The notes below the pieces were generated by a model. That model searched no databases and was not told the DNA's origin. It saw nothing but the letters and a program-made list of their open reading frames with translations. Made by a program: the position numbers and the translations under genes. This document shows positions 6,151-49,937 of a stretch of 64,000 bases of DNA, piece after piece (within the stretch, counting starts at the first letter, position 1; each line of letters starts with the position of its first letter). The DNA is from Prorocentrum cordatum (taxonomy: Eukaryota; Sar; Dinophyceae; Prorocentrales; Prorocentraceae): NCBI GenBank assembly GCA_963575745.1, contig CAUYUJ010015009.1, positions 156,273-220,272 of the forward strand. The letters are read 5' to 3'.

Positions 6151-6178
6151 CCTCCTCCTCCTCCTCCTCCTCCTCCTC
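6151..6178 (-). repeat. (GAG)n 3' tail of LINE-A
   Basis: On the minus strand the 3' UTR ends CACGCTC and runs directly into GAGGAGGAG. LINE-B ends in ACGCTCGAGGAGGAG at 35477, so the junction is conserved between two copies. Either the tail is templated by the element or the element always integrates at GAG. Confidence 0.75.
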
Positions 6179-6210
6179 GAGCGTGCCGGAGAGGTCCCGT
6201 CCCAAGGCGC

Positions 6211-7091
6211 CTAGCCTGCAGCAGGCCGACGGACCTGATGCCGCGCGCACCTGGCAATGGCCGCCGCCTCCTGATGGGACGGCGGGCGCGGTGCCTGGCG
6301 CGCTTCATTGTGAAGGACCTGCGCGCAGGTAACTCTGAAAAAGCCTTCCTTCGATGGTGCGCGAAGGCCGAATCGAGCAATCGGGCAGTCAGGGATGGGG
6401 GGGCGGGTGACAGAGGCGAGATGGGCGCAGAAGTGGAGACAAGACCAAACATGCTCGAAAGAGTGCTGTGCGTTACAACCGTACGGACAGTTCTGAATTT
6501 CTTGAAAGTTCGAGGACGTGACCCACCCCCAATATATGTACGAATTGCAGCATTTCGCCAGGAGGGGGGAAGAGGAAGGAGAGAGGAACGGACCTCAGAC
6601 CACGGAATCTGGGCAATAATTGGCTCGTGCAATGGGGGCCACTTCCTCGAGCGACGAAGAAAGAGAGCTTGGAGATCATCAGGGAAGAGAAGTTCATGAA
6701 TATGGTGCGATAGTTGTCGTTGGGGATAAAGGGCTTTAACAAGTATATGTGGATTCTCATTCTGAAGACGTTGAAGGTGAAGAAAAGCCGAGCGACAGGG
6801 AAGCCTGAGTTCTTTAACTTCTTGAAACTGCTGCGCAGCAGCCGCCTGCGTACTAGCAATCGCAGGCGACTGCCAGAAGGAGGGCCAGTGCTGTCGCCGC
6901 CAGACTCCGTCAGGTCAACTTCGACCACGAACGACCAGGGCGATCGGGATGTTCTCCTCGGCACTTGAGATCAGCATCTGATTCATTTCATTCCAAGACG
7001 AGAAGGTAAATAACGCAGCACGCATGATTTGTGCCGGGTTAGTCGCCCAGATACTTCGGACCAAGGGACCACCCCATTTAGCCAAATTAGG
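6211..7091 (-). pseudogene. LINE-A ORF2 C-terminal region with CCHC knuckle
   Basis: This continues the RT frame after the TAG at 7092-7094. It aligns with LINE-B from the PNL.KWGGP..RSIW motif onward through GRS.PD, IPW.EVR.SLL.LPPSWR and the final RHQV.RP. A TGA at 6915-6917 replaces the Trp codon of GRSWPD in LINE-B. A frameshift near 6495 moves the reading into the frame with CPYGC, then HSFEH, then VWSC, a CX3CX7HX3C-like metal knuckle; LINE-B has CPCC...HSLRH..WSC at the same place. The stop is TAG at 6211-6213. Such knuckles lie C-terminal to RT in R2- and L1-type elements and bind RNA or DNA. The reading is pseudogenic, but the gene order is intact. Confidence 0.75.
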
Positions 7092-8989
7092 CTAACCCTG
7101 GGCGTCAAGACGGAAACAAGGAAGGGCGAAACCACTAGCAAGCACTGCATGTTCCCTCTTTCGGTGCTGGGGCAGGAGCAGCTGGAACTGGCCAACGTAC
7201 GAGAGCACCGTCATCGCGCGCCTCGCGTACAGGTGCGCGGCGAGCTGGGTCGGAGCGCCTTCTTCCGCAATCATCTGTGCTCGCTTCACAAACTTCGCGA
7301 AAGGGTCCAGCCAGGACGTCAGAGGGGTCACGCTCGGGCCTATCCAGAGGCCAAGATATATGGCACCAGAGACCACGTCGAAGTTTTTCCACCCAGGAAC
7401 GGTTTGAGCGAGCATCATACGATAGCGGGCGGCGATCATCTCGTTAAACTCTGCCGCCAACGGCGCGAGCTTGCACTTCGCAGTCTTCAGCGCCAAATGC
7501 TCGAGGGACTGGGCAGTCCCGAAAATCTCGTGCAGGATCCCGATGCCCCGCAAACGGAATAAGATCGCGCCTATGTCATCGGCGCAAGCTCGAACAAGGC
7601 CTAGCTTCGGGGTTTCCAATATGTGACGGAACATTTTCAAGAAGGGATCGGCCCCGATGGCGAACAGAGTCCCGCTAGCGGGACACCCCTGGATAATGCC
7701 GCTAGTAACCCAGAAGAGGACCATTTCTTCCCCGCCAATCAGGCCAAGACAGATGACGCTGGTGCACAGATTCGCCAGAAGAGCGAAGAGAGGAGGAGGG
7801 GGGGAGATGCGACGAAGGACGGCAAGGAGCCATTGCTGAGAGAACGAAGGGAACGCCTGACCGAAGTCAAAGCAGAGGAGAGAGGGGAGAAGAGAGGGCG
7901 GGTCACCAGTCATACTGGCATGACGGGCAACGGCGTCGAGTTCGACAATGTTATCGCCAAAGTTTCGTCGAGGGACGAAGCCCCGCTGGGCGCCGTCAAG
8001 ACCCGGAGGGGGAGCAGCCGTCAATGGGCGGACCGAAATCGCCGTGATGATTTTATTGTCGCAGTTCTTTAACCCCAGGGGTCTGGTCTCCGCAGGCCGC
8101 CTCGCCCCAGGGAAATCACCAGGAGGGTCGGCCCCCTTGGGGGTGAAAACTCCCCGCGACATATTATATCCAAAAATGAGATTGCCCCGCGTGGAGCCAT
8201 CTCATCGAATTCAAAAGCACTTCATCTCCTAGAGGGGCGTTCTTCCACGCGCAATAGGGAATGCGGTCGGGCCCAGGGGCGCATTCGCACTGGTGTTCCA
8301 GGAATTTCCGAAGCTGGGACAACGTGGGAGGGGGGATGTCTTGACAATTGAGGTCAGGAGGAAATCTGTCCAGGAATTGTTCAGCCGCCTCATGGAGGTA
8401 CTCCTTAGCTTCGAACGCCGGCGCCCAGTGCTGCGAGAGCGATCGCATGATCGCGGCGGGAGACTGCTCGACCGCGCCAGAGTCTAACCTCACACCGGCC
8501 AAAATCACGCGCCGATCGAACGGGGACCAAAGACGGGCGAGCCGCGCAACTCGGCGAGCACGGCCCACAACACGCGCGACCGCCGACGGGTCGCGGAGCC
8601 GCTGAGCACTAGCCTGCAGGGAGCGTTGGGTCGACTCGGCGAGGGAGAAGTGGAGCGAGTTGGAGAGGGTCGTGAAGGCCTGAGGGTTGGAGAAGGAGAC
8701 GAGGTGGGTGTCGTAGTTGAGGTTCAAGTGCTCCCTGCAGAGCTCGTGCGAGCGGAAAAGCCTGCGCGCCAGCGACCAATCTTGCCTGAACGCTGCTCTC
8801 GCCATGCTCCTGGCCATGAGATACCTTGCAGTGTGGGTCTGAGGTCGTTTGGGGATAATCAAATCCCGAGCGTGCCGACTCGCTTCTAACATGAGGAATT
8901 TAAAATAATCATGGGCCATCGGCGGCGAGAGCTCATCCAGGGGGCGAGCCGCGAGCGCCTTCTTCAGAAAGCTCCGAAACTCACGAGAC
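7092..8989 (-). pseudogene. LINE-A ORF2 reverse transcriptase
   Basis: The N-terminal part (8989 to about 8175) contains the thumbless linker and APGPDRIPYCAW, the RT motif 1 type. A frameshift near 8170 (HFW then stop against LLFGYN in LINE-B) joins to the frame 8162-7092. There the motifs run in order: ETRPLGLKNCDNK (motif 2), QRGFVPRRNFGDNI, CFDFGQAFPS (motif A with catalytic Asp), GIIQGCPASGTLF (motif B), ACADDIGAIL (motif C, CADD in place of YADD), then KCKLAPL (motif D). All three catalytic Asp residues are present. The frame ends at TAG 7092-7094, a Trp codon in LINE-B. RT would prime at a nick made by the endonuclease. Confidence 0.9.
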
Positions 8990-9912
8990 TCAAAGATGGT
9001 CCTCGGAATCGGACGCTCGGCCACATGAGTGGGGGGGGCGCGCGCAAATGCAGATTTCCACAGGGGCGTGATCCGACAGGCCCTGGGCATCCAAAACTTC
9101 GGGGCGCCCCCTAACGGCACCTCCAGAGGCAAATTGCGAGGGGATCCAGGCAGGCAACGAGGGGAAGGCCCTATCAATAAATCCGAGGGTATTTTGGGCA
9201 GCAGAAGTGGGTTGGGGAGAGGAGTTCAAATTCAACAGCCGTGGCCAGGGCACCCCTCCACGCAGGGGGGGGGGGGGGGTCGATAGGGGGGGGGGTCGGT
9301 CAAATCATCAGGGGAGATGGTGTTAGGGACCTGGGGGTCATGAGGCAGAGGGGTATGAGAAGGGGGATTCAAGTCCCCAGCAATGAGAACAAGTTTATTG
9401 AGAGGGTCAGCCTGAGCGAGGGAAAGCTCGCCCTTGATCCAGCCGAGGAGGAGCGCCTGCTCAGTCTGGGGCAGCCCGTGGTTGTGGATGTTAAAGGGGC
9501 TCACACCACAGCGCCCATTTACTGCCGAGATACTCGTGAGAAGAGCCCTTCCAGGAACGATCGGAGTCGAGGAGAGGAGAGGGAGCCGGCCACCAGTGAG
9601 GGCTTCCCTAGCAGCAGAGGGCAAACATTTGGGGAAGAGGGTGATCGCGCCTCCTGTACGGAAGTTGGGGTGGAAGGAGGAGCAGGCGTGGAAAGGGAGG
9701 TGAAGGGAGTGGAGAAGGTCCTTAACGTCACAATGGGCCCCGTGCGTTTCTTGAAGGGCAACTATCGAACCCGTCTCTAGTAGACGGCGTAAAAACTTGA
9801 TTTTACGAAGTCTGAGCGAGTCGTCGTGATGAAACAATGCCCTCGCATTCCACGTCACGACCCGCAAGCGAAAGAGCGGCGCCCCTTCGCGCCTCACAGC
9901 ACCGTGCCACAG
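8990..9912 (-). pseudogene. LINE-A ORF2 APE-type endonuclease
   Basis: Endonuclease/exonuclease/phosphatase-fold motifs occur in order: VTWNAR (Asn), ALQETHGA (Glu), RTGGAITLF, NIHNHGL, IAGDLN (Asp/Asn) and GLSDHAPV (Ser-Asp-His), the last near 9063-9088. Homopolymers of 15 G (9265-9279) and 10 G (9286-9295), read as C on the coding strand, separate GDLN from SDH and shift the frame. The ORF2 start expected from LINE-B (ATG TGG CAT GG) is CTG TGG CAC GG here at 9912, 13 nt after the ORF1 stop. This enzyme nicks the target DNA in target-primed reverse transcription. Confidence 0.85.
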
Positions 9913-9925
9913 GGCACTCAGAACG

Positions 9926-11134
9926 TTAAACGCACCGCACAGTTGTCGGCGCTGATCCCACATCAGCAACGACTCGATCGCGGACCATCTGGACGTCCAT
10001 CTGCTCGTAGCGCAGGTTGTCCTCGGCCCGCTCGAGCGAAGGGAACTTCTGGCCTTCCTTGGGGGCGACGCGAGCCAGCGGTTTCCACTCCGCCAGCACC
10101 TCGCCACGGAACTTGTCAACGAAATATCTCTTTGCTGGATAAAGCTGCTGAAGGGCTGCGCGCGCCTTCTTGCACCCGAGCTCGCGCTTGATCTGGCACA
10201 CGTTCTTGTCGGGGCCCACGTGCAGTGCTGTGCGACCACCTGCCACAACCGTCGCTGAGAACGATCTCCACGTCGCAGGCTGACCGTTGGCACCAGGCGT
10301 GCGGAGGGCGCCGATGACCTGGCCCACCTTTCGCGCCGCCAGGTGCGGGTTGCCTTTGAACCTGAGCGTGAACTTGGTCCCAGTGGGCGTCTGCTCATCA
10401 AAGGCCCAGTCCGAGGGATCAATATTGCAATCTGAAAGCCACGATTCCAATCCGACCGCCACTGCAGTTTTAGCCACCAGCGACTGCGCACGGATGACCA
10501 CGATGGCGGTGTCCACCTCTCTGTTGAAGGTGCTGATGCCATCTGGGAGGAACTTCGGCGGTTGCTCATTCTGAACCATGTGCAGCTCACGTTGGATGGC
10601 CTTGATCTTTTCATCCATCTCATCAATCTTCCGATTCTGTTGCCGTACGCTAGTTTCAACACCGTGCATGCGGCCTTCCATCTGCTGGCTGAGAGACTTG
10701 TAGGATGAGGTAACATTCTTAGTGAGGGTCGAGAGCGCACCCTTGGCACTGGTTTGGGCATCTTGGATGGACTTGAGAAGATCTGCGTGCAGGCCTGAGA
10801 CATGTCCACGAAGGTCGTTGAGGGCTGCATCATCGTACTCCTTTGGCTCATGAACTTCGCTCTCATCCATAGGGGCGGGCCCCTCAGCCGCACGAGGGGT
10901 AGCAGTACCACCTGTGGGAGTATCAGGGACCGCACTACGTCGGGCATCAGGGGGGCTTCGCGTTCTTGCATCGCGTGGGCTGTCCGAACCAGCAGCATGA
11001 CCAGCAGCAGCGGCACGAGCACGACCAGGCGAACCCACCTTGGTCTGTGATGGGAAGGTTGGGGCGTCCTCCATTTCCTTGCAGAGACGGCGACGCTCCT
11101 CCTCCGACATGGCCTCGAAGTCATGGCTGCCCAT
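9926..11134 (-). CDS. LINE-A ORF1 protein (coiled coil + RRM-like)
   Basis: An intact 402-codon frame with ATG at 11134 and stop at 9926. Residues 1-40 include APTFPSQ, shared with LINE-B ORF1. About 40-95 is a Ser/Pro/Ala-rich low-complexity arm. About 102-192 has a heptad-like coiled coil ending RELHMVQNEQ. About 200-280 contains FNREVDTAIVVIR and KFTLRFKG..HLAARKVGQV, an RRM-like pattern. About 300-330 carries HVGPDKN...KRELGCKKA, nearly identical in LINE-B. This architecture (coiled coil, RRM, basic C-terminal domain) is that of L1-type ORF1 proteins, which trimerise and coat the RNA. Function is inferred from architecture and position before the endonuclease. Confidence 0.8.
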   Translation of the reverse strand: MGSHDFEAMSEEERRRLCKEMEDAPTFPSQTKVGSPGRARAAAAGHAAGSDSPRDARTRSPPDARRSAVPDTPTGGTATPRAAEGPAPMDESEVHEPKEYDDAALNDLRGHVSGLHADLLKSIQDAQTSAKGALSTLTKNVTSSYKSLSQQMEGRMHGVETSVRQQNRKIDEMDEKIKAIQRELHMVQNEQPPKFLPDGISTFNREVDTAIVVIRAQSLVAKTAVAVGLESWLSDCNIDPSDWAFDEQTPTGTKFTLRFKGNPHLAARKVGQVIGALRTPGANGQPATWRSFSATVVAGGRTALHVGPDKNVCQIKRELGCKKARAALQQLYPAKRYFVDKFRGEVLAEWKPLARVAPKEGQKFPSLERAEDNLRYEQMDVQMVRDRVVADVGSAPTTVRCV

Positions 11135-11299
11135 CGCGGTCTAGCGGTGTCGAATGTGCGAGAAAAGAAAGAGGTGGGAAGACCTCCGCCGTATGCAGAC
11201 AGGCAGAATATGCTTGAACAGAAATCCCCCACCCTGGGCAGGGCCTCTGCTCGGGGGAAGACAATGGGTCACCCTGGACCAACCTCGGGACATGTTTTA

Positions 11300-11321
11300 C
11301 TTGAGCCAAAATGGCTACGGA
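11300..11321 (-). other. Dinoflagellate spliced leader at LINE-A 5' end
   Basis: The minus strand reads TCCGTAGCCATTTTGGCTCA then AG, an exact match to all 22 nt of the DinoSL (first base D = T). The SL is preceded directly by (GGA)n and followed by the LINE 5' UTR. In dinoflagellates this leader is added to nuclear mRNAs by trans-splicing, so its genomic presence marks DNA copied from a processed mRNA. Confidence 0.95.
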
Positions 11322-11843
11322 CCTCCTCCTCCTCCTCCTCCTCCTCCTCCCCTCCTCCTCTCCTCCTCTCCTCTCCTCCTCTCCTCCTCTCCTCCTCTTC
11401 TCCCTCCTGCTGCTGCTCCTCCTCTCCTCCTCCTCCTCTCCTCCTCTCTCCTCTATCTCCCTCTCTCCTCCTCCTCCTCCTCTCCCTCCTCTCCTCCTCT
11501 CCTCGTCCCTCCTCTCTCCTCGTCTCCTCGTCTCCTCTCCTCGTCTCCTCGTCTCCTCGTCTCCTCTCCTCGTCTCCCTCGTCCTCCTCCTCTCTCCCTC
11601 TCTCTCCTCCTCCTCTTCCTCTCCTCCTCTCTCCTCTCCTCCTCCCTCCTCCTCCTCCTCTCCTCCTCTCCTCCTCTCCTCCTCGTCCTCCTCTCTCCCT
11701 CCTCCTCCTCTCCTCCTCTCCTCCTCTCCTCCTCCTCATCCCTTCCTCCTCCTCCTCCCTCCCTCCTCCTCCTCCTCCTCCTCCCTCCTCCCTCCTCCCT
11801 CCTCCTCTCCTCCTCTCCTCCCTCCTCCCTCCTCCCTCCTCGG
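11322..11843 (+). repeat. (TCC)n tract with CTCGT variants
   Basis: About 520 bp of TCC/CTC trinucleotides with interspersed CTCGTCTC blocks (11510-11580). It directly abuts the DinoSL of LINE-A. Open frames across it are Pro/Leu/Ser or Arg/Glu/Gly homopolymer artefacts. Confidence 0.95.
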
Positions 11844-18507: not shown

Positions 18508-18588
18508 GAGGAGGAGGAGGAGGAGGAGGAGGAGGAGGAGGAGGAGGAGGAGGAGGAGGTGGAGGAGGAAATGGAGGAGGAGGAGGAT
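18508..18588 (+). repeat. (GGA)n tract at LINE-C 3' side
   Basis: About 80 bp of GGA repeats adjoining the 3' end of LINE-C. The tract has the same strand sense as the one at the element's 5' end (24414-24835). Confidence 0.9.
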
Positions 18589-18759
18589 TTTGACATCAAC
18601 ATCAAGGATGAGTGCCCGCCCAAACGATTAGAGCAGGCTGGCTGGCCAGGGCCAGCAAAAGAGAACTAACACCTGAAGACAAAGGAAAGGCAGGAGGTCA
18701 CATAGACATCTCCAGCTGGCTGGAGGATTCCCCGTGGCCAGGTGCTTCTCCCCCAGGCG

Positions 18760-19791
18760 TTAGTCAGAACTAGAGTCGCCCTCGTCACGATGCGGTAGCT
18801 TCGAAACGAGAGGGGCCTCGTCTTCTTCCTGCTGAAGAGGGGACGAGACACCTTGCAACACAACCCGAGGATCCTCCTCGAAAAGAAAACGGGAAGCTTC
18901 CTCCTCGGCCATCCATGCGTCGACTCCTCCCGCTGGCGCAAAGTCAGCCTGGCACCCAGCAGAAGAGGCAGCGTTGCTCCCCCCGCCCACTCCTGACTCC
19001 ACCCCATCCCCGCCACCCAGAGAGCTAGAAGGAATATCGAGAGAATGAAAAGCAACAACATGGCTGGCTGCACGGCCCCCACCCAGCTGCGCCCAAGGTC
19101 CGCGCTCAACCGTGACTCCTGGGCGCTTCGGATGGAGGCCTCTGCAAACCGGGTGCCAATTATTATAGCGCTTAGACCGAATTGGAGCAGCACGCTTCTC
19201 CGCTAGGCCGCAGATCCTGCCATGCGAAGAATAAGAAAAAGCACTTAGTACAACTGACATGTGATGCTTTGTCTGAGCACAGGAGTGTCAAAGCCCTGTG
19301 CCCCCGCGACTCCAAAGTCCTCGGCTCAAGCCCACGGACATGACCACAACGAGACGGAGGGGGCGGGGGACCGTGGGTCGACAGACGACTGACTATGGCA
19401 CAGACCGAGCACTTCCAAAAACCAGAAGCTGAGCCAAGCTCAACCTGTTGAATCGGCTCCCAGAGACAAGTGGCTTTCTGCACCGAAGGGGGGGGTCCTT
19501 GGACGGCTTCGTCCACGTAACACCCTGGAGGTCAAATTTGGGCCATTTGGGCATCAGCTTAGCTGCTTCAAGAGCCGCAGCCCTGGCAATCTTTACATCC
19601 AAGTCAACCCTAGAAGAGGCCTCCTCGGGCGGCTGTGGGTGCCCCAAGAGCCCTTCCCCAGCTGAAGCACTCTTGGCTCCAACATCGGCGTGATGGTTCC
19701 CATAGCGGCGCATTTTATCCCGATCGTCGGTCCACTCATCGAGCGACAAGTGAGCCTTGACTTTCTGCAAAACGCGGACCTTCCAAATGTC

Positions 19792-19871
<80 letters not shown>

Positions 19872-20709
19872 AACCACCGGAACTACGCTTTGGCGACAGC
19901 TGATCAACCCTGGGACGGTCGAAGTGGTCTTTGACCAGCTGCGCATCCGTGAAACAAATCTGACGGCTCGCCTGCAAACGTGACAGCCTGGCAGAAAGCA
20001 GCAAACTCTCCAGCAGGGGCAGTCTGAGGATAGCAAGGGGGGGGGAGGGCCGTAGAGCTTGCGGAGCCTCCTACAGCACGCCAAGAAGGGGACTCCTGAA
20101 AAAAAAGGACACCTTCCCAAGCTTCTCTCAGCTCCCTGAACGAAATAGAGCAAGGCCCTAACCTGAGAACACCACAGCTCCTTGTGCCACCTCAAGGTTG
20201 GCGAAACCGCGCCAACCCACGCGGGGCCCCCTTCCAGGTGGGACAAAACGGTCAGGGAGCGTTGGCCAGCCGAAGGTTTCATGGTAGATGCCGCTGCCCT
20301 GCGAATGAGCAGCAACTCGTGATCCGTGACTCCTCTCACCTCGCTGCCGTAGAGCAGGCCAGGGAGAGGTCCAGCAGTGCAAACGCGAAGAGTTCTCCGA
20401 GGCCCCGCGGCCTGCCTGAGTCCAGCCACTCTGGCCGTGCGTTTCCTGAAAAGGTGCCTCCTGACTTTCTGCTTTTTGTTTCGGCCCCGGACCCTAGAAC
20501 TCTTCCCGACGGAGTCGTCAAATCCCAAGGTTAACAGCGCTGGAGGTGATTAGGCCCGTGAGCTCAACTCCAAGATTAACCTGGGTGGCCCTGCCTAACT
20601 TGGCCGACGAACAAATGAGGCTGGATTTGTCTGCCGCCACCTGAGCTCCGATGCCGTCTACGATGGCGGCGTGGAGCTGGGGCGCGCCCTCTGTGATGGC
20701 ACCCGCCAC
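18760..20709 (-). pseudogene. LINE-C connection, RNase H-like and C-terminal region
   Basis: After the RT comes a connection region (20709-20150) with PGLLYGSEV, LIRRAAAST and GGPAWVGAVSPTLRWHKELW, typical of dinoflagellate LINEs downstream of YIDD. Near 19700-19600 the frame reads VLQKVKAHLS...RYGNHHADVGAKSA. This fits the end of RNase H (H of the VKAH motif, D of the GN..AD motif); the earlier catalytic carboxylates are not visible. A 36-unit (GA)n stretch splits this domain. The last part (19516-18760) is Cys/His-rich with SCTKC, ICGL and LHPKRPGV, resembling terminal knuckles of such elements. Several frameshifts. Confidence 0.55.
19794..19880 (+). repeat. (GA)n microsatellite inside LINE-C
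   Basis: About 36 GA units with one GC variant, expanding inside the RNase H-like region. The coding strand reads TC and adds Ser-Leu or Leu-Ser repeats. Confidence 0.95.
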
Positions 20710-20719
20710 AAAACTAGAC

Positions 20720-22294
20720 GTGCCTACCGCGCTGAGCCCAGAGTCGTCTATGTAGAGCGCCAGCTCAGCACCCTGCCTAAACCTAACACAATCGAGCTAT
20801 TCCACAGAATTGATCCTAATGAGAGTCGTCGCCAGGGAACACCCCGCAATGATGCCAGAAAGCGCGAACCAAGGGCCGTCCAGGCAACCGCCCAGAGAAA
20901 GAGACCTCGGGGCCCGATAGGCCCTAACGGCCAGCTTGGCCATAGCCGGGGGGAAGTCTAACATTAAACACCTGTCCAGGAGTCGCTCGAGGTGAATAAG
21001 CTCGTAGTATTTGAACATGTCCTGAAGAAGCGTAGCCGCATGCAATTGCTGAGTGGCGCCGCTTTCGCTGCGGAGGCTCTGGCGCCGCGCAGCATCGGCC
21101 GCCCCCTGGTACTTGCCCGCGGCAAAGTGGGGACGAGCGTGCGCCCCCTCCCAGCTCTCGGCGAGGCACCGCCGCGCTTTGCCACACAGGCGATAGGGCC
21201 CCATGAAAATCCCAATGGGGCGAAAACCCCCGCTCGGCTTCCCCGGGAGGGCCAGAGCGGTGGCGTCCAGCTGGGCTGGGAGCATGCTAGAAATCCCCAT
21301 CGCCTGCAGGATCCTGCACAAGGCCAGGGCCCCAGGACAAGAAATCATGCTAAAGTGTTTCATGTGAAAGCCGTCCACCCCAACCGCCGAGGTCGTCTTG
21401 TAAGTCCTGGAGATGCGAAAGAGCTGCTCGGGGTCCAAAGGGGGGGGCCCAGGGGCAGGCTCGAAATCGGCGGCAGGGCCCCCGAGCAGTGGGGAATCCG
21501 AAGCGCGCCACAGCTTAGTAAACTTGCGGCTCTCCTCAGCCAGCAAGGCCCTCGGGTTGCTGACAACGCAGCCGTTGGCCGAGAGGGTGGGCGAAGGTTT
21601 CCACGGCTTGGGTTCGGAGGTAACCATGTGAGCACGTTTGGCCCCCTGGTCGATGTTATCCCTCAGCCAGCTGCGCCGGGGCGCCAAGCTCTTGTCTCTG
21701 GCGCTGCTCTCAGCCTTAGAGACAACCTCCGAGGCTAAGAGAGACAATTCAAAAACCGTCTTCTGATGATCACTGTAATGGCCCGTGTCCAACTGGCGGA
21801 CCGTGGACTGCAAAGTGTCCGGCAGACCCCGCTGACCCCCCAAATGCCCCTCGACAAAGGGGAGGGGGGGGGGGGGTCAGAACGCGGGGCCTCGGAGCCC
21901 AGAGGTTGAGGGGCGGGGGAGAGGAATGCGACAAATTTAACCTAGAATTGGACGTGTGGTCGTCGTCGTCGCCGTCGCCGTCTTCCCCAGGCTGGGTTTG
22001 GTTGTTGGCTCTCTCTTGAGTCGGACTAGACGCCTTGCAGTCCAAGATGCGATTATATAGCCACCTGACAGAGTGCAGAAATGGGTGCCTGAGCGGTTCC
22101 CTGTCGCGAGAGAACGCTGGCTTCCAGACGAGCTGAGGGCCCTTGCCCCTAGCGCCCCAGTAAGGCAGAGAGACTTGGGTGGCGTTGGCGACCTCAACTT
22201 CAGCAAGGTTGGCCCACCACTTGTAAGTGCGATTCAGCAGCCTCTGAGTTCCCTGCCCTCGACCCCCCCTCGCAGCCTCAAGGGCCGCGTCCAA
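20720..22294 (-). pseudogene. LINE-C pre-RT linker and reverse transcriptase
   Basis: The linker (22294-21770) carries NRTYKWWANLAEVEVANA. The RT frame 21843-20797 has TTSAVGVDGFHMKHF (motif 1), LALPGKPSGGFRPIGIF (motif 2), LQDMFKYYELIHLERLL (motif A with Asp), LSLGGC, and SGIIAGCSLATTLI (motif B). A frameshift near 20800 leads to LALYIDDSGLSAVG (motif C, YIDD) at about 20725-20765, preserved in another frame. The catalytic triad can be read across the break. Motif B and YIDD place it apart from the LINE-A/B type. Confidence 0.8.
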
Positions 22295-22479
22295 AACTCC
22301 AAGAACAGGGTCCCAAGAAAGAGGGTTCCCGAGTAGGACCGATGGCCCTTTGAGGGGGGAGGGGGGGGGGGGGGCTTCCGAAACACAAGCACTTCGAGCT
22401 GAGCAGGGGAGGGGGATAACTCAAGATCCACAGGAGAGTGGGGAGTTAGGGGGGAATTACGATTGACTGTCACCTGCCT

Positions 22480-23100
22480 GACGACCTTGGAAATGCCAGC
22501 AGAGACAACGAAGAAGTCCGAGACCTTGAGGCCCCCCCGTGCTGCGGAGCGTGTAATCTCCGTCGGTCGGGGTGATCATCTGGCCTTTAAACTCGGACAC
22601 GAACCGATAACTGTTGAAATTCACCAGGCGTCATATTGAAGTCGCTTCCCAAGATGACTGGGAGGTCAGAGTGAGAAAGTCATGCACGGATATGCGACAA
22701 TAGCTCCACGTTGCGCTCAGACAGACCCTCGGCATCATGGAGATATGCTGATCCGACGAGGACCTGAAAACCTCCTGGAATGTCGACCACACAAGCTCCA
22801 GCACTATGGGGGGGGGGGGGGGGGGGGGGGGGGGCAGAACGAAGCCCGACGACAGCGTGTGAAGCCCAGGGTAAGATCTTGCCAAAACTGCGACTCCCCC
22901 AGACGATCCCGTACCCTCCCCTCGCGCTGCCGCCGCCCAACGCGACTTCCAGCCGCGACGAAAGAGCCACTCTGATGCCTTGGAGATGTCTTCTTCGGAA
23001 CACAGGTGATGCTGATGAACTAGCAACACATGCGCTGAAGTCATGGGTAGCCAATTGAGCTTAAGTGACAGCCAACCTGTAACATTGCACGTCTGGACGC
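22480..23100 (-). pseudogene. LINE-C APE-type endonuclease
   Basis: TCNVTGWLSLKLNWL (Asn motif), LLVHQHHLCSEEDI (position of the Glu-type QE motif, here HQHH), EWLFRRGWKSRWAAA, SSGGVAVLAR and VILGSDFNMTPGEF (Asp/Asn motif) occur in order. The last is in a different frame from the first four. A run of 27 G at 22808-22834 (C on the coding strand) lies between SGGVAVL and SDFN and would scramble the frame. The C-terminal part reads SDFFVVSAGIS with a later PHSPVDL. The usual catalytic Glu is not evident. Confidence 0.65.
22808..22834 (+). repeat. 27-G homopolymer
   Basis: An uninterrupted run of 27 G, the longest in the window, inside the endonuclease of LINE-C. It may be of uncertain length in the assembly. 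Confidence 0.9.
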
Positions 23101-23234
23101 AGGGCGAGAAGTTCTCTAAAGCAGGAGGAGCTGACGGCCTTAGAGAACCTTCCACAGGGGCTCCAAGGGCCACATCCTTGCTAAGGAGAGGGGAATAACC
23201 AGACGCATCACATTGAATGTGTGACAAGCTGCTG

Positions 23235-24392
23235 CTACCCAGGAGAATATGAAGCAGCACCAGCAGACGCAGCAGTCCTGGCCGTCTTCGCTGCTGCCAC
23301 GATGAACGAAGAGACACGCTCCCTCGACTCAGCCGAGACAGCCTCAGACTGCGCCTCCTTCCAAGCACGCAACACATTGTCGAACGCACCAGAACCAGCA
23401 GGAACAACCTGGGGCATAGCTTCATCTCCAGGCGTGCCAGTCCCCGCCCCAGCCCCTGAGCCCGTCCCCCCCACCCACATCATCAGCAGCAGCACCGCCA
23501 GCTCCGCTGGCAGGCTGCGGCCCTTGGGCAAAAGACTCGCAGCTCGGCTTGAGCTTGGCCCAGCCCTCGCGGATCGCCGCCAGGTCGCCCGACGCCAACA
23601 CGGAGTCGAAATCGGACATGTGACCCTGGAGCTCCGCCGCCTGCGGGGGCGGCGGCAGGTCAGCAACCTTCGCCGCCAGCTCGAGGTAGCGAGCCTTGAG
23701 CTGAGCCTGCTGGGCGGCCGCCTCGGCCCGCTTCTCGTTGGGCTCCTTGAGACGCACCTGGGCGTCACTGATCTGCTTGTCGAGGGAGACCACTGTGCGT
23801 TCGTTCTTCTCCAAAGCCTGCTGAGCCTCATTGGCCTGCTGACGAATAGGACGAGCTTCCGACTGCCGAGAACGAATAGCCGAGGCAGAGGCCAACACGG
23901 AGCTGTCCACCGCCGCGCGCTCTGGGAAGTCCTCCTTGAGCTGGCCCATGAGCATCTTGATCTGCGATAGCAGCGAAACGGGGTCCGAGGGGAGGGCCAG
24001 CATGCCGCCTCGACCACCGCCAAGACCGCCTGCCCCTTATCCCCCGCCGCCGATGCCGCCGCCACCGCCAGGACCACCTTTGCTTCCCCCCTTTCCGCCG
24101 AAAGAACCTGTGTTCCCGCCCTTGAGACCTTTGTGGGGAGAACCGTCCTTCCACACACCAGCAGGAGAAGGCTGAGCACCAACAGACACATGCGGAATAT
24201 GCGCCCAACAATTAGCACACCACTTGTACCACGGTTTGTTGCACTTCGCAGCGCCGCACGCGAGACATTTCGCACCGATGACCTCATGCTTCGGTCCCAT
24301 GGGAGACACACACGAGTGCAGAACGACAAAACGAGCCAGATTGACCCGCTCGCGCAATGTGCCGTTCTGAAATATGCGCTAGCAAGCCCCAA
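23235..24392 (-). pseudogene. LINE-C ORF1-like region: Cys finger and coiled coil
   Basis: In one frame (24357-24037) it reads KCLACGAAKCNKPWYKWC and ANC, a CX2C..CX2C finger, followed by Gly/Lys-rich sequence. Another frame (24003-23422) has a long Ala/Glu/Gln/Lys-rich coiled coil (RQQANEAQQALEKNER, KRAEAAAQQAQLKARYLELA) ending FDSVLASGDLAAIREGWAKL. Finger plus coiled coil before the endonuclease is a usual plan for the first protein or N-terminal part of dinoflagellate LINEs. No continuous frame joins the two. Confidence 0.55.
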
Positions 24393-24395
24393 GAA

Positions 24396-24413
24396 CTTGG
24401 GCCAGAACGGCTA
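24396..24413 (-). other. Decayed DinoSL at LINE-C 5' end
   Basis: The minus strand reads TAGCCGTTCTGGCCCAAG. It aligns to the last 18 nt of the DinoSL with three differences, all transitions, and abuts the (TCC)n (minus-strand sense) tract. The first four SL nucleotides are missing. Position and sequence match the exact SL copies of LINE-A and LINE-B. Confidence 0.75.
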
Positions 24414-24835
24414 GGAGGAGGAGGAGGAGGAGGAGGAGGAGGAGGAGGAGGAGGAGGAGGAGGAGGGAGGAGGAGAGGAGGAGGAGGAGGAGAGGAGGAG
24501 GAGGAGGAGGGCAGGAACAGCAGGAGGAGGAGGAGGAGGAGGAGGGGAGGAGGAGGAGGAGGAGGAGGAGGAGGGGAGGGAGGAGGAGGGAGGAGGGGAG
24601 GAGGAGGAGGGAGGAGGAGGAGGAGGAGGGGAGGAGGAGGAGGAGGAGAGGAGGAGGAGGAGGAGGAGGAGGAGGAGGAGGAGGAGGAGGAGGAGAGAGG
24701 AGGAGGAGGATCAGCAGGAGGAGGAGGAGGAGGAGGAGGAGGAGGAGGAGGAGGAGGAGGAGGAGGAGGAGGAGGAGGAGGAGGGGGAGGAGGGATGAGG
24801 AGGAGGAGGAGGGGGAGGAGGACGGGTGGCCGAAA
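24414..24835 (+). repeat. (GGA)n tract, about 420 bp
   Basis: GGA/GAGG repeats with a few ACA and TCA variants, starting right at the LINE-C 5' end. Confidence 0.95.
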
Positions 24836-35380: not shown

Positions 35381-35477
35381 TCCTCCTCCTCCTGCTCCTC
35401 CTCCTCCTTCCTCTCCTCCTCCTCCTCCTCCTCCTCTTTCTCCTCCTCCTCCTCCTCCGCCTCCTCCTCCTCCTCCT
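35381..35477 (+). repeat. (TCC)n tract shared by LINE-B tail and LINE-E 5' side
   Basis: On the minus strand LINE-B ends ...GGCTACGCTC and continues as GAG repeats through this tract, after which LINE-E-type sequence starts. One tract thus serves as 3' tail of one element and 5' flank of another. Confidence 0.8.
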
Positions 35478-35502
35478 CGAGCGTAGCCGCGGGCCTGGTC
35501 CA

Positions 35503-36953
35503 TCAGGTCGTTGGGCGGGCGACCTGGTGGCGGACCAGCCTTATGATGGCTCCGCTCGTCCTCGTACTGACCGGGGGCGGTGAGGTCCTAATCTCGTTGT
35601 GAAGGTGAACAGCGTACACGACAACTCTGAATGTGCAGCGAGAGGGCTGACTGAGACCGAGGCGGGCGATAGGACAATTGGGGAGCTGGAGGACACGCGC
35701 GGTGCGAGCCAAGAGGGTGAGAAAGACAGGGCAAGACCAGAGGTGGCGAAGCGAGTGCGGAGGATGCCGGCAACACGGGCAGGGTTCTTGCCCCTGAAAA
35801 TTTGAGGACGTGATCCAACCACCCACTAGGGTTCGCACGATGGCGGCTCTCCAGGAGGGAGGGAGATTGAGAAGGGAGGTGCGTACTTCAGGCCACGGGA
35901 TGAGAGCGATGGTTTGGGCACTGTGCGGGAACCAGGACCTGAGACGTCGAAGAAAGAGTTCTCGGAGCCTGTCGGGGAATAGAAGAGAATGAAGAAGCTG
36001 AGAAAGATGGCGCCGAGGATGGAGTGCGAGGCAGATGACGTTGAGTATGTTGGTGTTGGATATGTTGAAGCTGAAGAATGGCAGGTGCGCGTATATCACG
36101 GAGAGGATCTGAAGCGGGGAACCCTTGTGAGGCTGCTTCGAGGGTGCTGACCATCGCGGGGGACTCCCAGAACTCGGGCCGCAGCTGCGGGCGCCAGAAG
36201 TCGGGCCAACTGCGACCGCTGAGAATGGTGACGAGCGGGAGCGAGTCCTCTGCGCATGACTTCAGGCTGTCGAACAGAGGGCGCCACCCTGGGAAGGTGA
36301 AAAGACTCGCACGCACCAGCTGCGCGACATTCGTGCACCAAATGCTCCTGATGTGTGGGCCGCCCCACTTCTCGAGATTCGGCCAGCCTTGCTCGTCCAC
36401 TCTGTAGCGGGGAAGCTTGAAAGTACTGGCCAGGACGGCCGCCTCTTTTCTCCTCATCTCGGGCAAGAGGAGCTGGTACTGGCCAGCATGCGAGAGGACA
36501 GTGAGCACTCGTCGCGCGTAGATCGATGCCGTTCGCTCCAATGGGGCCCCAACCTCCGACAGAGCACGAGCGCGCTGGAGATACTTGGTCCATGGGGCTC
36601 TCCACGAGGTCCATGGGGAAACCGCGGGGCCCAGCCAGAGGCCGAGGTAGAGCGCCATAGGAGAAATCTCGAAATCCGACCAGTTCGGGGCCAGAGATGA
36701 CAGGAGTCGAAGATAACGACGAGCTAACCTATCTGAGAATTTGTCAGCGAGCGGCACGAGCTTGCACTTCTGCACCTTCAAAGAGAGGCGCGCGAGTGTC
36801 TCCGCCACGCGGAAGGCAGAGGCCAGGACCACCCCATCCTTCAGCTGGAATAAAATTGCGCCTATGTCATCTGCACAGGCCCTTGCTATGCCTTTACCTC
36901 GAGATTCCAGCAAAGCCCTAAACGTGCGAAGAAAAGGATCAGCCCCAATAGCG
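35503..36953 (-). pseudogene. LINE-B ORF2: RT motif C (second copy) to C-terminal knuckle
   Basis: The frame starting at 36913 reads ARACADDIGAILF (motif C with both Asp), LKVQKCKLVPL (motif D), LGLWLGPAVSPW, YARRVLTVLSHAGQYQLLL, GWPNLEKWGGPHIRSIW and GRSWPDFWRPQLRPEFWE. A frameshift near 36070 leads to 36099-35503 with IPWPEVRTSLLNLPPSWR, the knuckle EPCPCCRHPPHSLRHLWSC and the end VRHQVARPTT-stop. It is homologous throughout to LINE-A 7560-6211. Confidence 0.85.
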
Positions 36954-37060
36954 GGAATAAAATTGCGCCTATGCCATCTGCGCAGGCCCTTGCTATGCCT
37001 TTGCCTCGAGATTCCAGCAAAGCCCTAAACGTGCGAAGAAAAGGATCAGCCCCAATAGCG
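36847..37060 (-). repeat. 107-bp tandem duplication within RT motif C of LINE-B
   Basis: 36847-36953 and 36954-37060 are direct copies differing at three positions. Each encodes the end of motif B's helix through motif C. The copy read first on the coding strand has ACADGIGAIL, the second ACADDIGAIL. As 107 is not a multiple of three, the duplication shifts the frame. Confidence 0.95.
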
Positions 37061-37891
37061 AAAAGCGTGCCGCTCGCAGGGCAGCCTTGGAGAATCCCAC
37101 TAGTGACCCAGAAGAGGACCTGTTCGAGACCACCTATGAGGCCAGTGCAGATGACGCCAGAATACAGATCCAAGAGGAGGTGGAGGAGAGCGGGAGGAAG
37201 GGACATTCGTTTCAGGACCGCGAACAGCCAACGCCGGGCCATGGAGGGAAAAGCATGCCCGGAGTCATAACAGAGGGGGGAGGGGGGGCGGAGGAGGGGG
37301 GCACCGCGCATGCTGGCTTGCCGCCCGACGGCGTCGAGCTCCAGAATGTTCTGTCCAAAGTTTCGGCGGGGAACGAAACCGCGTTGGGCCTCGTCGAGGC
37401 CGAGGGGAGGAAGAGAGGGTCAGAGGTTTCACAGAGACTCCCGTGATCACTTTGTTGTCGCAGTTTTTCAGCCCCAAGGGTCTCGTCTCCGCGGGGCGGC
37501 GGGTGCCGGCGGCTTCTCCTGGCGGGTCAGTCCCCTTGGGGATAAAGACTCCTCTGACCTCGTTGTAACCAAAAAGCAAGCTTTGCCCAGAGTGAATCCA
37601 GCGCATCGAATTGCGGGGCACGTCGGCGCCACGAGGAGCGAAGTGCCAAGCGCAGTATGGGAGTCTGTCAGGACCTGGGGCACTGTGGGTCTGGATTTTG
37701 AGGTATCGCTGGATGTGCTGATAGGTGGGGTGGGGTGGGGTGGGGGTGGGGGGGGGGTATCCACGCAACGCATTTGGGGGGGAACCTATCCAGGAAAGCT
37801 TCTGCCTCCTCGTCGCGGTGCTCCTTAGCAGTGAAGATCGGGGCCCACTGCTGAGCCAGATGCGAAAGGATCGCTGAGGGCGTCTGTGCAA
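36954..37891 (-). pseudogene. LINE-B ORF2 RT, motifs 1 to C (first copy)
   Basis: One frame (37891-37265) has HSAPGPDRLPYCAW (motif 1), SLLFGYNEVRGVFIPKG and ETRPLGLKNCDNKVITG (motif 2). Another (37311-36886) has CYDSGHAFPSMARRWL (motif A), TSGILQGCPASGTLFAIGAD (motif B) and ARACADGIGAIL (motif C with Asp to Gly). A GGGGT-repeat/poly-G patch at 37725-37757 disrupts the sequence before motif 1. Motifs A and B are as conserved as in LINE-A. Confidence 0.85.
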
Positions 37892-38663
37892 CTTCGCCTC
37901 CGCTCCTGCGAACGCCCGACAGCATCAGTCTCCGATCGAACGGGGGCCGCAGTCTCGCGAGACGATTGACCCTGCGAGCGCGAGCAGAGACACGGGCGAT
38001 CGCAGACGGGCGCGATAGCCGCTGATCACTAGCCTGGAGAGCACGCTCCGTAGTCTGAGCAGTCTTGAGGTGGAGCTCGTTGGAGAGGGCCGTGAAGAGG
38101 AGAGGGTTGCGGAGGGAGATATCGAACGTGTTCGGGTCCAGGAGGAGGTGCTCTCGGCAAAGAGGATGAGATTGAAAAAGGCGCTGAGCCAAGACCCAGT
38201 CCTGGCGGAACAAAGCTCGAGCCATTCCTCGGGCGACCAGAAATCGGGAAATGTGAATGTGGGGGCGTTTCTGGATGAGCTGGTTTCCGGCGAAACGCGC
38301 CGCCTCCGCCATCAGGAGTTTGTAGTGCTCGTGAGCAGGGGGGGGGGGGGGGGGGCGGTGGTCAACAGAGGCCGCCCGGGTCGCTCGATGTAGAAAGAAC
38401 TTGTACGGGGCCGACGCAAACAGCCCCTTGGGGATCGGCCTGTCCCCTTCAGGCCTGGGCGGTCGCACGCGGATGTGAGCAGCGACAGGCGCGTGGTCGG
38501 AGAGACCCTTCGCGCCCAGCACCTCAGGATGTTCAGTGACCTCCCCGCCCGACGCGTATTGCGAGAGAATCCAGCCAGGCAGCGAGGAGAAGATCCTGTC
38601 CAGGAAACTAAGCGACGAACTTTGACTGTTGAAATGAGTGGGGGAGAGAAGTTCAAACTCCAC
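37892..38663 (-). pseudogene. LINE-B ORF2 end of endonuclease and linker to RT
   Basis: It starts with SFLDRIFSSLPGWILSQYAS and LGAKGLSDHAPV (Ser-Asp-His of the endonuclease, about 38486-38510), then the linker with LIQKRPHIHISRFLVARGMA, ALFRQDWVLAQRLFQSH and ARRVNRLARLRPPFDRRL. LINE-A has the same segments at 8990-9177 and below. A run of 18 G at 38338-38355 extends a Pro stretch absent from LINE-A. Confidence 0.85.
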
Positions 38664-39328
38664 CGTGGGGGGCTAAAGCCCGACTCCAGTCCCTGGGGGG
38701 GGGGGGGGGGCGGGGGTGAGGGTCAGTAAACACACTGAAGTCACCATTCGGGGGGTTGAGAGGGATGGGTTCATGGGATGAGAGGTTCATATCCCCAGCG
38801 ATGAGAACCAATCTATTGAGGGGGTCCCTGTGCCTGCTGAAGCGCGGCGGCCATCGCGCCGAACAAAGCTGCCTTGGCAGCCACGGAGAGGCCGTGGTTG
38901 TGGATGTTTAAGTGCTGGATCCAGCACCCCCCATTCACAGCCCCTATCTCGGTCTGAAGTACGCGGCCAGGGATCAGAGGGGCGGGCGAGACAGGAGGGA
39001 GGGCGCCGCCCAACGAGACCCTGCGGGATTCGGTTGGAAAGAACCGTGGGAAAATGGTGATCACGCCCCCAGTACGAAAACCATTATGAAAGGACCAATG
39101 CGCCTGGAGGGGGAGGAGGAGGGAGTGGAGAAGGCCCCTGACATCGCACGGGGCACCGTGCGTCTCATGCAAAGCGTCAATCGTGCCAGACAGCACGAGA
39201 CGGCGCAGCAGCCTCACTTTTTGCGCCCTCAGTGAGTCATCGTGGTGAAATAGCGCCCTCGCATTCCATGTGACCACTCGCAAGTCGAAGTGAAGCGAAC
39301 CGTCATGCTTGGCTTGACCATGCCACAT
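38664..39328 (-). pseudogene. LINE-B ORF2 start and endonuclease
   Basis: The ATG at 39326-39328 lies 13 nt after the ORF1 stop; this spacing suggests re-initiation or a separate start. The frame reads LRVVTWNARALFHHDDSL, DALHETHGAPCDV (Glu retained, Gln to His), RTGGVITIF and LNIHNHGLS. It stops at 38813 because of a one-base slip; in the next frame the Asp/Asn motif is LIAGDMNLSSHEP. A run of 16 G (38695-38710) follows at the same place as the 15-G run in LINE-A. Confidence 0.85.
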
Positions 39329-39341
39329 GGTACTGAGCGTG

Positions 39342-40562
39342 CTAGGAACTCCACGCTGTCTCCGTGACGGGGCCGAAGGCATCGGCGGCAAGCTGCTGGA
39401 TGCGCTGCGCATCCATACCCTCAGCCCGCATGCTCTCCTTCGCCCGCAACAAATTCGGCATATCTTGACCCTCCACAGGGACGGCCTTGCATATCGGCTT
39501 CCGGCCCAGTAGTATCTCGCCCTCGTGCCTTTCCAGGAAGAAGCGCTTCTGCGGGAACTCGCGGACCAGCACGCCTTTGATCTTCTTGCAGCCCAGCTCG
39601 CGGCGCGCCATCTCCGTGTTCTTGTCAGGACCGACGAACAGGTTGACTGTGCCGTCGGCGATCGATTCCGCTCGGAAGGACCTCCAAATTGGAGGAGCAT
39701 TGCCAGGGGAGGGCGTCTTGAGGGCGCCCAGGACTTGGTTGACCTTCCGCTCGGCGTAGTTCTTGGCACCAGCGAAGCGCATCGTGAATATGATGCCAGC
39801 AGGCTCTTGCTCGTCGAAGGTGTACTCTTGTTCGTTAATGTTGCAGTCTCGCAGCCAGTCCGCCAGGGCGTTCTGCATGTTCGACTTCGTGACCAGCTTC
39901 GGGGAGCGGATGACCACCACTGAGCGGTCGATCTCCCTGTTGAAGCTGGAGCCCGAGATTGGGCGGAGAGGCGGTTGCGGCTCTTCACTCTGGACCACTT
40001 GCAGCTCCTGCCGAAGCTGAGCGATCTGGTTCTCGATGCGGTCCAACCGCTTGTCTTGGTCATCAGCGCGATTTTCCACGCGGTTGATCCTCGATTCCAT
40101 AGCATGGCTGATGTCTCGGAACGACGATGTAATATTATTCGAAACTGATGTGAGGGAGGCCTGCACACTGTTCTGCACTGCTGCAATAGACTGCTGCAAC
40201 GCTGCTTGTACTGCATCCACATGGGCACGAATCGCGACCAATTCCTCTGCAGACTGTGGGCCACCTCCAGGTAGTGGGGGCACTCCATTGCCATGACCAG
40301 GGCACGAACCTGAAGTGGGTGAGGAGGCGCCAGATGCGGCGGCGTGACCTTTTCCCAAACCTTTGTTGTTGACGACCCCGTGCGTTGAGGAGATGACAGC
40401 ACGCTTGCTTGGGGGTTGGCCGTCAGGAAGTTCATCATCAGCATGAAAAGGAGGGCCAGCACGTTGGGGAGTGGCGACCTCCTGCGATGGGAATGTTGGC
40501 ATGGCCTCGAGCGCCTCGAGAGTCGCGGCAGCCGCCGCTTCGCGATGTCCATCGCTCTCCAT
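39342..40562 (-). CDS. LINE-B ORF1 protein (coiled coil + RRM-like)
   Basis: 406 codons from the ATG at 40562; an upstream in-frame ATG at 40679 exists, but the chosen start gives a length like the 402-codon ORF1 of LINE-A and precedes the shared PTFPSQ. It has a Pro/Ser/Gly-rich N-terminal arm and a coiled coil (IRAHVDAVQAALQQSI to ENQIAQLRQELQVVQSEE). The RRM-like segment is FNREIDRSVVVIR...IFTMRFAGAKNYAERKVNQV, and the C-terminal domain has FVGPDKNTEMARRELGCKK. It is uninterrupted despite the broken ORF2. Inferred RNA-binding chaperone of the retrotransposon particle. Confidence 0.8.
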   Translation of the reverse strand: MESDGHREAAAAATLEALEAMPTFPSQEVATPQRAGPPFHADDELPDGQPPSKRAVISSTHGVVNNKGLGKGHAAASGASSPTSGSCPGHGNGVPPLPGGGPQSAEELVAIRAHVDAVQAALQQSIAAVQNSVQASLTSVSNNITSSFRDISHAMESRINRVENRADDQDKRLDRIENQIAQLRQELQVVQSEEPQPPLRPISGSSFNREIDRSVVVIRSPKLVTKSNMQNALADWLRDCNINEQEYTFDEQEPAGIIFTMRFAGAKNYAERKVNQVLGALKTPSPGNAPPIWRSFRAESIADGTVNLFVGPDKNTEMARRELGCKKIKGVLVREFPQKRFFLERHEGEILLGRKPICKAVPVEGQDMPNLLRAKESMRAEGMDAQRIQQLAADAFGPVTETAWSS

Positions 40563-40749
40563 AGCCTGCACGGAACAGATGTGGCGAGAGGGAGACGGGA
40601 GGTACCGTAGGCAGAGCTGGGTGTGCTGCGGACACGCCGCAGGGGAGAAAAGAGTGCGGATACCCTTGTCCTGGGGCAACTCTCCAGGGTCTCACTCGCG
40701 CGCGGCGGGCCAGGCCACTTGAGACGGGGGGTCGAGTTCCCGAAATGGC

Positions 40750-40771
40750 CTTGAGCCAAAATGGCTACGGA
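40750..40771 (-). other. Dinoflagellate spliced leader at LINE-B 5' end
   Basis: Exact 22-nt DinoSL on the minus strand (TCCGTAGCCATTTTGGCTCA then AG), followed by GCCATTTCGGG of the 5' UTR and preceded by (GGA)nGG. It is identical to the copy at 11300-11321, although the sequences downstream of the two SLs differ. Confidence 0.95.
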
Positions 40772-40984
40772 CCCTCCTCCTCCTCCTCCTCCTCCTCCTC
40801 CTCCTCCTCTTCTTCCCCCCCCCCGCCCTCTCTGGGAGGCCGCCTCCCCTCCAGGCCGCCGCAGTTGCCCGCCAACACTAGCAGCGCCGCCAGCGCGGCC
40901 GGGGGGGAGGCGGACAGCCCGCGGAGCGCCCACTCGGAGGCGATGGGGCGCAGGGACTCGGCGAGGAGGGTGCTCCTCGGCATT
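40772..40984 (+). repeat. (TCC)n tract (40772-40815) and short unassigned sequence
   Basis: The TCC tract touches the DinoSL of LINE-B. The following ~170 bp is GC-rich with no recognised content. Confidence 0.8.
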
Positions 40985-49285: not shown

Positions 49286-49937
49286 TTATTTCACGGCGTG
49301 GCCCTGCTCTGGCCTCGGAGCAGCTCCGACGAGTTCCTCCTCTCCCAGGCGCCGCGAACCCGCTGTCGGACCTTGGGCCAAACGCGAGCCAAGAGCGGCA
49401 ACAGCCCGATCGGTCTTGCTCCTCCGGTCGGCTTGTCCAGGAAAACGCTCATAACCATCCAGAGTTAGGGGGCGAGCGGATTTCGCTCCCGCGCGTTGAG
49501 CGCGCCTGCGAAGCTCTGGGCACTTGCCGAAGGCAGCTGCGAGATAAATCTGGGATGCAACCCATCCCATCCGAGGGCCGTGACTTTGGCGAAACATCTA
49601 CAGGCCGAGCGAACGCCCTCCTCGGTGATGGGCTCGAGAAAAACTGTAACCTCCCAAAACCTTGGGTGCTCCTCCTGGGCCTTGGCCTCCTGGGTCCAGA
49701 TGGGAACGCGCTCCTCTGGGTTTCTCTAGAAAGGGCCATGTGGCCAGCGAGCGGAAGCCTTCCTTCCTCCCCAGGACCTATGATGGGCAAGGCGGGCTTG
49801 GGGCCCTTGCCGAAACGGTGTGCTATGCGACCGCCTTTAAGCGCCGACGCCTGGGCAAAGTCCTGCCACGCTTGCCTAGCCCTGTGAGTGTCGCGAGCAA
49901 CTCTAGAAGCTACCTCCTGCGCAAGGGCCCCCAGCAC
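49286..49937 (-). pseudogene. LINE-G pre-RT linker and RT motifs 1-2
   Basis: The frame 49937-49449 reads RDTHRARQAWQDFAQASALK then GGRIAHRFGK, the W..A...GA..AHR.. pattern of the region preceding RT in dinoflagellate LINEs. Around 49620-49552 another frame reads ITEEGVRSACRCFAK and ALGWDGLHPRFIS (motif 1). At 49449-49399 comes VFLDKPTGGARPIGLLP (motif 2), followed by RVWPKVR. Confidence 0.6.

Follow-up and report, generated by a model that had tools for sequence, protein, structure and literature searches.

LINEs of Prorocentrum cordatum that begin at a genomic copy of the dinoflagellate spliced leader

Why does an exact copy of the 22-nt dinoflagellate spliced leader (DinoSL, here SL), TCCGTAGCCATTTTGGCTCAAG, mark the 5' end of a LINE in the genome of Prorocentrum cordatum? 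The copy under study lies at 40750-40771(-) of the 64-kb stretch of DNA analysed here (the window), at the 5' end of the element LINE-B. A second exact copy lies at 11300-11321(-), at the 5' end of LINE-A, and both are located immediately 3' of (GGA)n on the coding strand, as an earlier note on this DNA had described. The 21-nt SL core matched the window twice at up to three mismatches, compared to no matches in 100 dinucleotide shuffles. The relic that the note had reported for a third element, LINE-C, was also confirmed: 18 nt at 24396-24413(-) are identical to the SL save for three transitions. Taken as a full 21-mer (24396-24416(-)), this decayed SL has five mismatches and ranks third among the window matches on both strands, directly after the two exact SLs. 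It is preceded by (TCC)n, not (GGA)n.

All three elements lie on the minus strand. LINE-A extends from its SL to ...CACGCTCGA (6177-11321(-)) and LINE-B from its SL to ...CTACGCTCGA (35477-40771(-)), while LINE-C extends from its decayed SL to ...GTCAAAAT (18587-24416(-)). Directly upstream of the SL, a (GGA)n-rich purine tract was followed as far as 11800 in LINE-A (11322-11800(-)), and a (GGA)n-rich tract of approximate outer limit precedes LINE-B (40772-40815(-)). The 3' end of LINE-A directly adjoins a (GGA)n tract (6151-6176(-)) and that of LINE-B a (GGA)n-rich tract (35381-35476(-)); in the sequences of both 3' ends there is no poly(A). LINE-C is bordered by (TCC)n-rich tracts upstream (24417-24820(-)) and at the 3' end (18509-18586(-)), both with approximate outer limits. 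The reverse transcriptase of LINE-A was located by its own profile at 7136-8174(-) and matched Pfam RVT_1 on 7092-8162 (E 3.4e-09), and its PF03372 endonuclease match was below the Pfam cut-off (E 0.003). That of LINE-B (36427-37573(-)) is split by a frame shift and was located by a profile seeded with LINE-A, and that of LINE-C (20811-21678(-)) by a separate clade C profile; a Pfam search of the given LINE-B and LINE-C frames matched neither reverse transcriptase nor PF03372.

LINE-A and LINE-B had been called independent and full-length. They are separate insertions, but of related elements, with 66% nucleotide identity over 1.2 kb and reverse transcriptases that were sisters in the tree with a support of 100/100. 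They are present to their full extent, but the reading frames of both are interrupted, so that neither is intact. LINE-C, previously called unrelated, gave no protein match to LINE-A or LINE-B, and its reverse transcriptase belongs to another clade. A fourth reverse transcriptase fragment in the window, of clade C, was observed at 49311-49701(-). The minus strand of the window has no further SL within six mismatches.

We searched the whole genome assembly (4,128,499,153 bases, or 4.13 Gb, in 21,875 contigs) and found 7,201 + 7,017 = 14,218 exact 21-nt SL cores. The reversed control pattern of the 21-mer had no match in the whole genome; together with the shuffles, this rules out a chance origin of the SL matches. 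SL RNA genes were also rejected as the source of the sites, since the layout of such a gene was seen by eye in 0 of 40 loci. Two of these loci have GT after the SL, and both contain LINE sequence (a reverse transcriptase in L036 and a weak endonuclease match in L032).

The 40 loci comprise 40 of the first 41 SL sites listed, the other one being inside locus L047; they are thus the head of the listing and not a random sample, and all were chosen for a perfect SL. For each locus, about 4.3 or 8 kb downstream of the SL was fetched. Reverse transcriptase profiles seeded with LINE-A and LINE-C detected two reverse transcriptase clades among them. A LINE reverse transcriptase was found downstream in the sense orientation at 25/40 SL sites, starting 2.1-4.0 kb from the SL, compared to 0/40 in the antisense orientation at the same threshold. 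The proportion was 14/20 for loci also used for profile building and 11/20 for loci not used. For scale, the density of the LINE-rich window (four reverse transcriptase copies in 64 kb) predicts about two to three in 40; LINEs are thus common at the SL sites sampled.

RVT_1 exceeded the Pfam cut-off in LINE-A, L013, L017 and L019, and in the last three the APE-like endonuclease PF03372 also exceeded it, upstream of the reverse transcriptase. This is the composition of APE-type LINEs, and these elements are members of that group. RNase H was above the cut-off in L027 and below it in L014 and L021; no match was obtained in PDB (searched with L027) or in NCBIfam (searched with L013 and L027). Among the other 15 loci, weak endonuclease matches were detected in L032 (E 1.5e-4), L042 (E 0.0017) and L047 (E 0.0011). 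Two more of them showed other content: L038 is a copy of a host WD40 gene with an SL and a decayed relic, located outside any tract, and L016, in a CCT tract, has an SL, a decayed relic and a weak KOW/Spt5-like match. L010 has a 2,054-codon open frame (2837-8998(+)), which opens 1.8 kb downstream of an SL embedded in a CCT tract and has no Pfam match above the cut-off.

The SL was also found when the searches were performed with the 5' UTR alone. The 200 nt after the LINE-A SL, used as query, gave 27 matches, most of them over about the first 74 nt. Non-self matches starting in the first six bases numbered 25, and 20 of these (L049-L068) were fetched. In 20/20 an SL or SL relic stands directly before the same base, strongly decayed in L065 and L067 and reduced in L062 to a pair of relic units with no complete outer leader. 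Beyond the SL junction, 20/20 lack shared sequence, which counters the objection that copies of this family might extend upstream past the SL; L049 and L050 have a common flank and could represent a single insertion. By eye, a CCT or GGA tract lies above the SL in 17/20, and other sequence in the remainder. An SL at the 5' end without shared upstream sequence is also the mark of a DinoSL retrocopy. The 72-nt module directly after the LINE-A SL (11228-11299(-)), which 25 other places match in all or in part, is kept in all 20 relatives; in most of them the match to LINE-A hardly extends beyond it. A conserved RNA structure was considered for this module but is not claimed: three hairpins were predicted, but only 1/14 pairs showed a double change, with a covariation term of +0.32.

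The LINE-B UTR query gave 41 matches, or 39 after removal of the self match and an internal piece. With the SL included, the query gave 40 matches, all of which begin inside the SL (at query base 1, 2 or 6). Judged from match ranges, with 40 of 107 candidates scored per search, 34/39 of the UTR matches were recovered with an SL or relic aligned and 5/39 were not, three of which align only from base 20 or 27. Because an SL-containing query favours SL-bearing copies, 34/39 is the fair figure for LINE-B. Thus nearly all examined copies of two different 5' ends have an SL.

Repeat tracts are the second recurrent feature of these 5' ends. Twelve pure pyrimidines precede the SL at 3,624 of the 14,218 sites (25.5%) and twelve pure purines at 1,312 (9.2%), so that 34.7% of all SL sites have a tract of either type, mostly CCT or GGA repeats. 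The background rate, taken from the window, from flanks close by and from downstream sequence, was 0.9-3.1% for each type. The ratio of pyrimidine to purine tracts before the SL is 2.8 to 1, though the background is symmetrical. The GGA tract, which had been put forward as the setting of these LINEs, holds for LINE-A and LINE-B; genome-wide, however, CCT is the commoner tract, and the insertion target is better described as a microsatellite. Under a looser 30-nt rule, the 40 loci comprised 18 with pyrimidine tracts, nine with purine tracts, four with another period and nine with none; one of the last, L019, has AT repeats at both ends (by eye). Other repeats around the SL in L019, L032, L043 and L047 were AT, CAT, CACATA-like and CAGACA-like.

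The two borders of an element mostly match. The same tract type occurs at both ends of LINE-A, LINE-B and LINE-C in the window, and in 9/12 tract-embedded elements if the downstream border is set at the first long tract beyond the reverse transcriptase; in L011, L022 and L023 (3/12) a short tract of the opposite kind comes first downstream. L014 is without a 5' tract, and the end of L027 is beyond the fetched stretch. Poly(A) was seen at none of the LINE 3' ends read. Inside such simple repeats, a target-site duplication would merge with the tract itself. A 5' tract above chance and the same tract at both borders are the characteristics of microsatellite-targeting LINEs. Among the first 100 pyrimidine sites listed, 42/64 perfect CCT tracts share the register of the TCC in the first bases of the SL (p 1.6e-7), which suggests that the cDNA end may anneal to the target by microhomology at the 5' joint. 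Within clade A, the four elements with purine tracts are monophyletic (97/99; 0 of 500 shuffles), whereas tract orientation is scattered in clade C (a value as low was reached in 132 of 200 shuffles).

The tract could instead be a product of insertion, with a repeat tail copied at both ends. LINE-generated microsatellites are recorded in Lepidoptera (PMC2887409), and LINE-A and LINE-B have GCTCGA in common just before their 3' GGA tract. The tract sequence is however irregular and varies between copies, and L019 has AT repeats at either end. We therefore regard this origin of the tracts as unlikely, and the repeat tract probably preceded the insertion; the conclusion on the SL is unaffected either way.

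In L013, a single frame of 1,863 aa encodes both the endonuclease and the reverse transcriptase above Pfam cut-offs and starts at the first ATG, directly behind the SL. An ATG directly follows the SL in 9/40 loci; their frames range in length from 15 to 2,660 aa, and that of L027, which is the longest, reaches the end of the fetched stretch. L013 and L025 show 91% identity over the whole span between their tracts, SL and body included, and their flanks beyond differ. Their dN/dS is 0.26 over 1,846 codons, which indicates purifying selection. Together with the differing flanks, this shows that at least this pair has been under selection and has moved.

The SL is not always alone. Genome-wide, 1,202 of the 14,218 exact SLs are directly followed by an exact 15-nt relic, which begins after the internal AG acceptor of the leader (CCGTAG|). 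Among the LINE loci, this relic is exact in L017, L022 and L048 and imperfect in L014 and L030. A second SL unit (up to four mismatches) was detected in 10/20 LINE-A relatives, at an offset of 15 nt in eight and 17 nt in two. For LINE-B with the SL included, the 39 non-self matches start at base 1 (n=20), base 2 (n=3) or base 6 (n=16). Judged by match ranges, a 15-nt relic beneath another leader would produce such base-6 starts, which also take in a match to the AG of the outer leader. Three LINE-B 5' ends on one contig (G000:C13564:293059, 299370 and 305753), about 6.3 kb apart, all start at base 6 and may represent a tandem array or repeated insertion. In LINE-B itself, the bases directly 3' of the SL (40739-40749(-)) read GCCATTTCGG and, speculatively, may be a very old relic. 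A higher relic rate behind pyrimidine tracts was considered and dropped, the hand counts of 12/100 versus 1/31 being not significantly different (p 0.30).

L048 appears to record successive additions. It is 73.6% identical to the window LINE-C over 2.4 kb, and its 5' end consists of an SL, a perfect relic and an older, innermost unit that has derived transitions in common with the single SL of LINE-C. Since these transitions are shared, the simplest account is that LINE-C inherited its odd SL as an old leader and that two further leaders have since been added in the L048 lineage. A similar displacement is seen with the motif GGATACC.CTAGTC, whose distance downstream from the SL is 25-26 nt in five loci but 41 nt in L017; as L017 has one 15-nt relic, the relic accounts for the difference. 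The motif, with variants, occurs within 60 nt downstream of the SL in L009, L015, L017, L035, L037 and L041, which include both reverse transcriptase clades, and an ATG abuts the SL in 5/6 of these loci.

Stacked units bear directly on whether the SL is simply inherited as DNA, with an internal promoter that starts transcription exactly at the encoded SL and so mimics a trans-spliced mRNA. The identical single-SL arrangement of the close relatives L013 and L025 is what inheritance predicts, and the SL may indeed pass as DNA for some generations. The LINE-A family can be read in the same way, its outer SL and conserved module having diverged by similar amounts (6.0% and 9.0% per site); this difference is also too weak to sustain the proposal that the SL is the younger of the two. 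As a general account, however, inheritance appears distinctly improbable. The number of SL units varies between relatives, and the exact relics start at the CCGTAG| acceptor. Moreover, families that are separated in their reverse transcriptases by roughly one change per site or more have the same perfect 21-mer before unlike 5' ends, though inner units can be decayed. These structures suggest that the leader came from trans-splicing.

Template switching, in which the reverse transcriptase jumps from the 5' end of the LINE RNA to SL RNA or an SL-bearing RNA, would also place an SL at the 5' end. Template jumping is known for LINE reverse transcriptases. Recombination of LINE-1 with other RNAs is the subject of PMC13174262. 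Jumps would often be expected to carry in intron sequence, and in the loci read the joint falls at the end of the SL exon, with no intron sequence visible by eye in the 40 loci (a reading made independently of this species' SL RNA gene). We consider template switching highly improbable.

The trypanosome elements SLACS and CZAR insert into SL RNA genes, and LINEs that similarly target SL sequences and insert directly behind them would also adjoin an SL, yet there is scarcely any likelihood of this here, given that the other side is mostly a repeat tract and not the remainder of an SL RNA gene, that a repeat tract mostly lies above the SL as well and that the SL count varies between copies.

Collectively, these results make it very likely that APE-endonuclease LINEs of at least two reverse transcriptase clades retrotranspose from trans-spliced, capped mRNA into microsatellites and regain the leader in each cycle. 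That trans-spliced mRNA is the template of retrotransposition, as the earlier note had read it, is supported at the level of sequence by the 20/20 LINE-A junctions and the 25/40 sense reverse transcriptases. In the proposed cycle, the host would add the 22-nt leader to the LINE RNA by trans-splicing, and the LINE endonuclease would nick trinucleotide or other simple-repeat tracts. Target-primed reverse transcription would then copy to the RNA 5' end, and because it runs to that end, a daughter of full extent would begin exactly at the SL, with a repeat tract on either side and without poly(A). The daughter, once transcribed, would need new trans-splicing. Use of the terminal AG of the encoded SL in this step would restore a single SL and leave the event hidden, whereas use of the internal AG (CCGTAG|) would leave a 15-nt relic beneath the new SL. 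The note had also suggested that the SL could serve as a renewable, mobile 5' end. The stacked SL and relic structures agree with renewal; that the DNA-encoded SL is itself the splice acceptor is something we infer.

We also put forward, tentatively, a further possibility: the LINEs may be promoterless, the acceptor of the encoded leader turning any read-through transcript into a capped, translatable LINE mRNA of full length, and the same machinery may recycle host mRNAs. The CCT tract often found before the leader could then act as a polypyrimidine tract, and in several families the start codon would lie directly behind a fresh leader. In the leader, the host would thus supply the element with a 5' end that renews itself.

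SL tags and relics on retroposed host genes are already established. DinoSL-tagged retrogenes and relic SLs were described by Slamovits and Keeling (2008), as related in passages of PMC3229502, PMC6050394 and PMC7245778; host relics are truncated at an internal AG (PMC3229502, in part), and stacked relics on retrogenes have been interpreted there as repeated cycles of mRNA retroposition. The LINEs sampled here resemble these retrogenes in their genomic SL, in relics cut at the internal AG and in stacked relics. In contrast to the tagged host genes, the tagged sequences sampled here are mainly LINEs, the SL is the 5' border of whole families and, unlike in the retrogene cases discussed, this border is often in a repeat tract. 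With other APE-type LINEs these elements have in common a PF03372-type endonuclease and an RVT_1 reverse transcriptase, but their 5' end is a host-type spliced leader, with an ATG directly behind it in the nine loci described above.

Microsatellite-targeting LINEs are known, such as the R1-clade elements Waldo and Mino. Restriction-like-endonuclease elements with microsatellite targets are also mentioned in a passage of PMC4640811. The elements described here are similar in that they insert into simple repeats and that tract orientation follows the tree in clade A; they differ in the CCT/GGA trinucleotides, the dinoflagellate host, the leader at the 5' joint and the scattered orientation in clade C. 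With SLACS, CZAR and the trypanosomatid LINEs they share a host that performs spliced-leader trans-splicing. Trypanosomatid elements have Pr77 at their 5' end, which drives transcripts that are unspliced (PMC8190864), whereas here the SL exon alone belongs to the element. Insertion into an SL RNA gene of the SLACS/CZAR type was rejected, as a repeat tract lies opposite in the window LINEs and in most elements read.

Song et al. (2018, PMC6050394) called the retroposition enzyme of dinoflagellates unknown and favoured Ty1/copia-type LTR elements, while a passage of PMC10235124 suggested LINEs for virus-derived inserts with a nearby SL. Symbiodinium LINEs are described in PMC5890265, in a text that contains neither 'leader' nor 'DinoSL'. 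In the accessible parts of the open-licence PubMed Central literature, we found no description of LINEs whose 5' end is regularly the SL.

As a source of the reverse transcriptase that recycles mRNAs in dinoflagellates, LINEs that regularly start with the leader are a direct candidate. The repeat-tract borders of these LINEs provide a signature that can be searched for in host retrogenes, and stacked leaders provide a partial count of past cycles. Genomic SL copies in P. cordatum may have been mistaken for retrogenes or for the starts of host genes. Should the encoded leader be the acceptor, such a LINE would dispense with a promoter, capturing the splicing signal of its host in every round.
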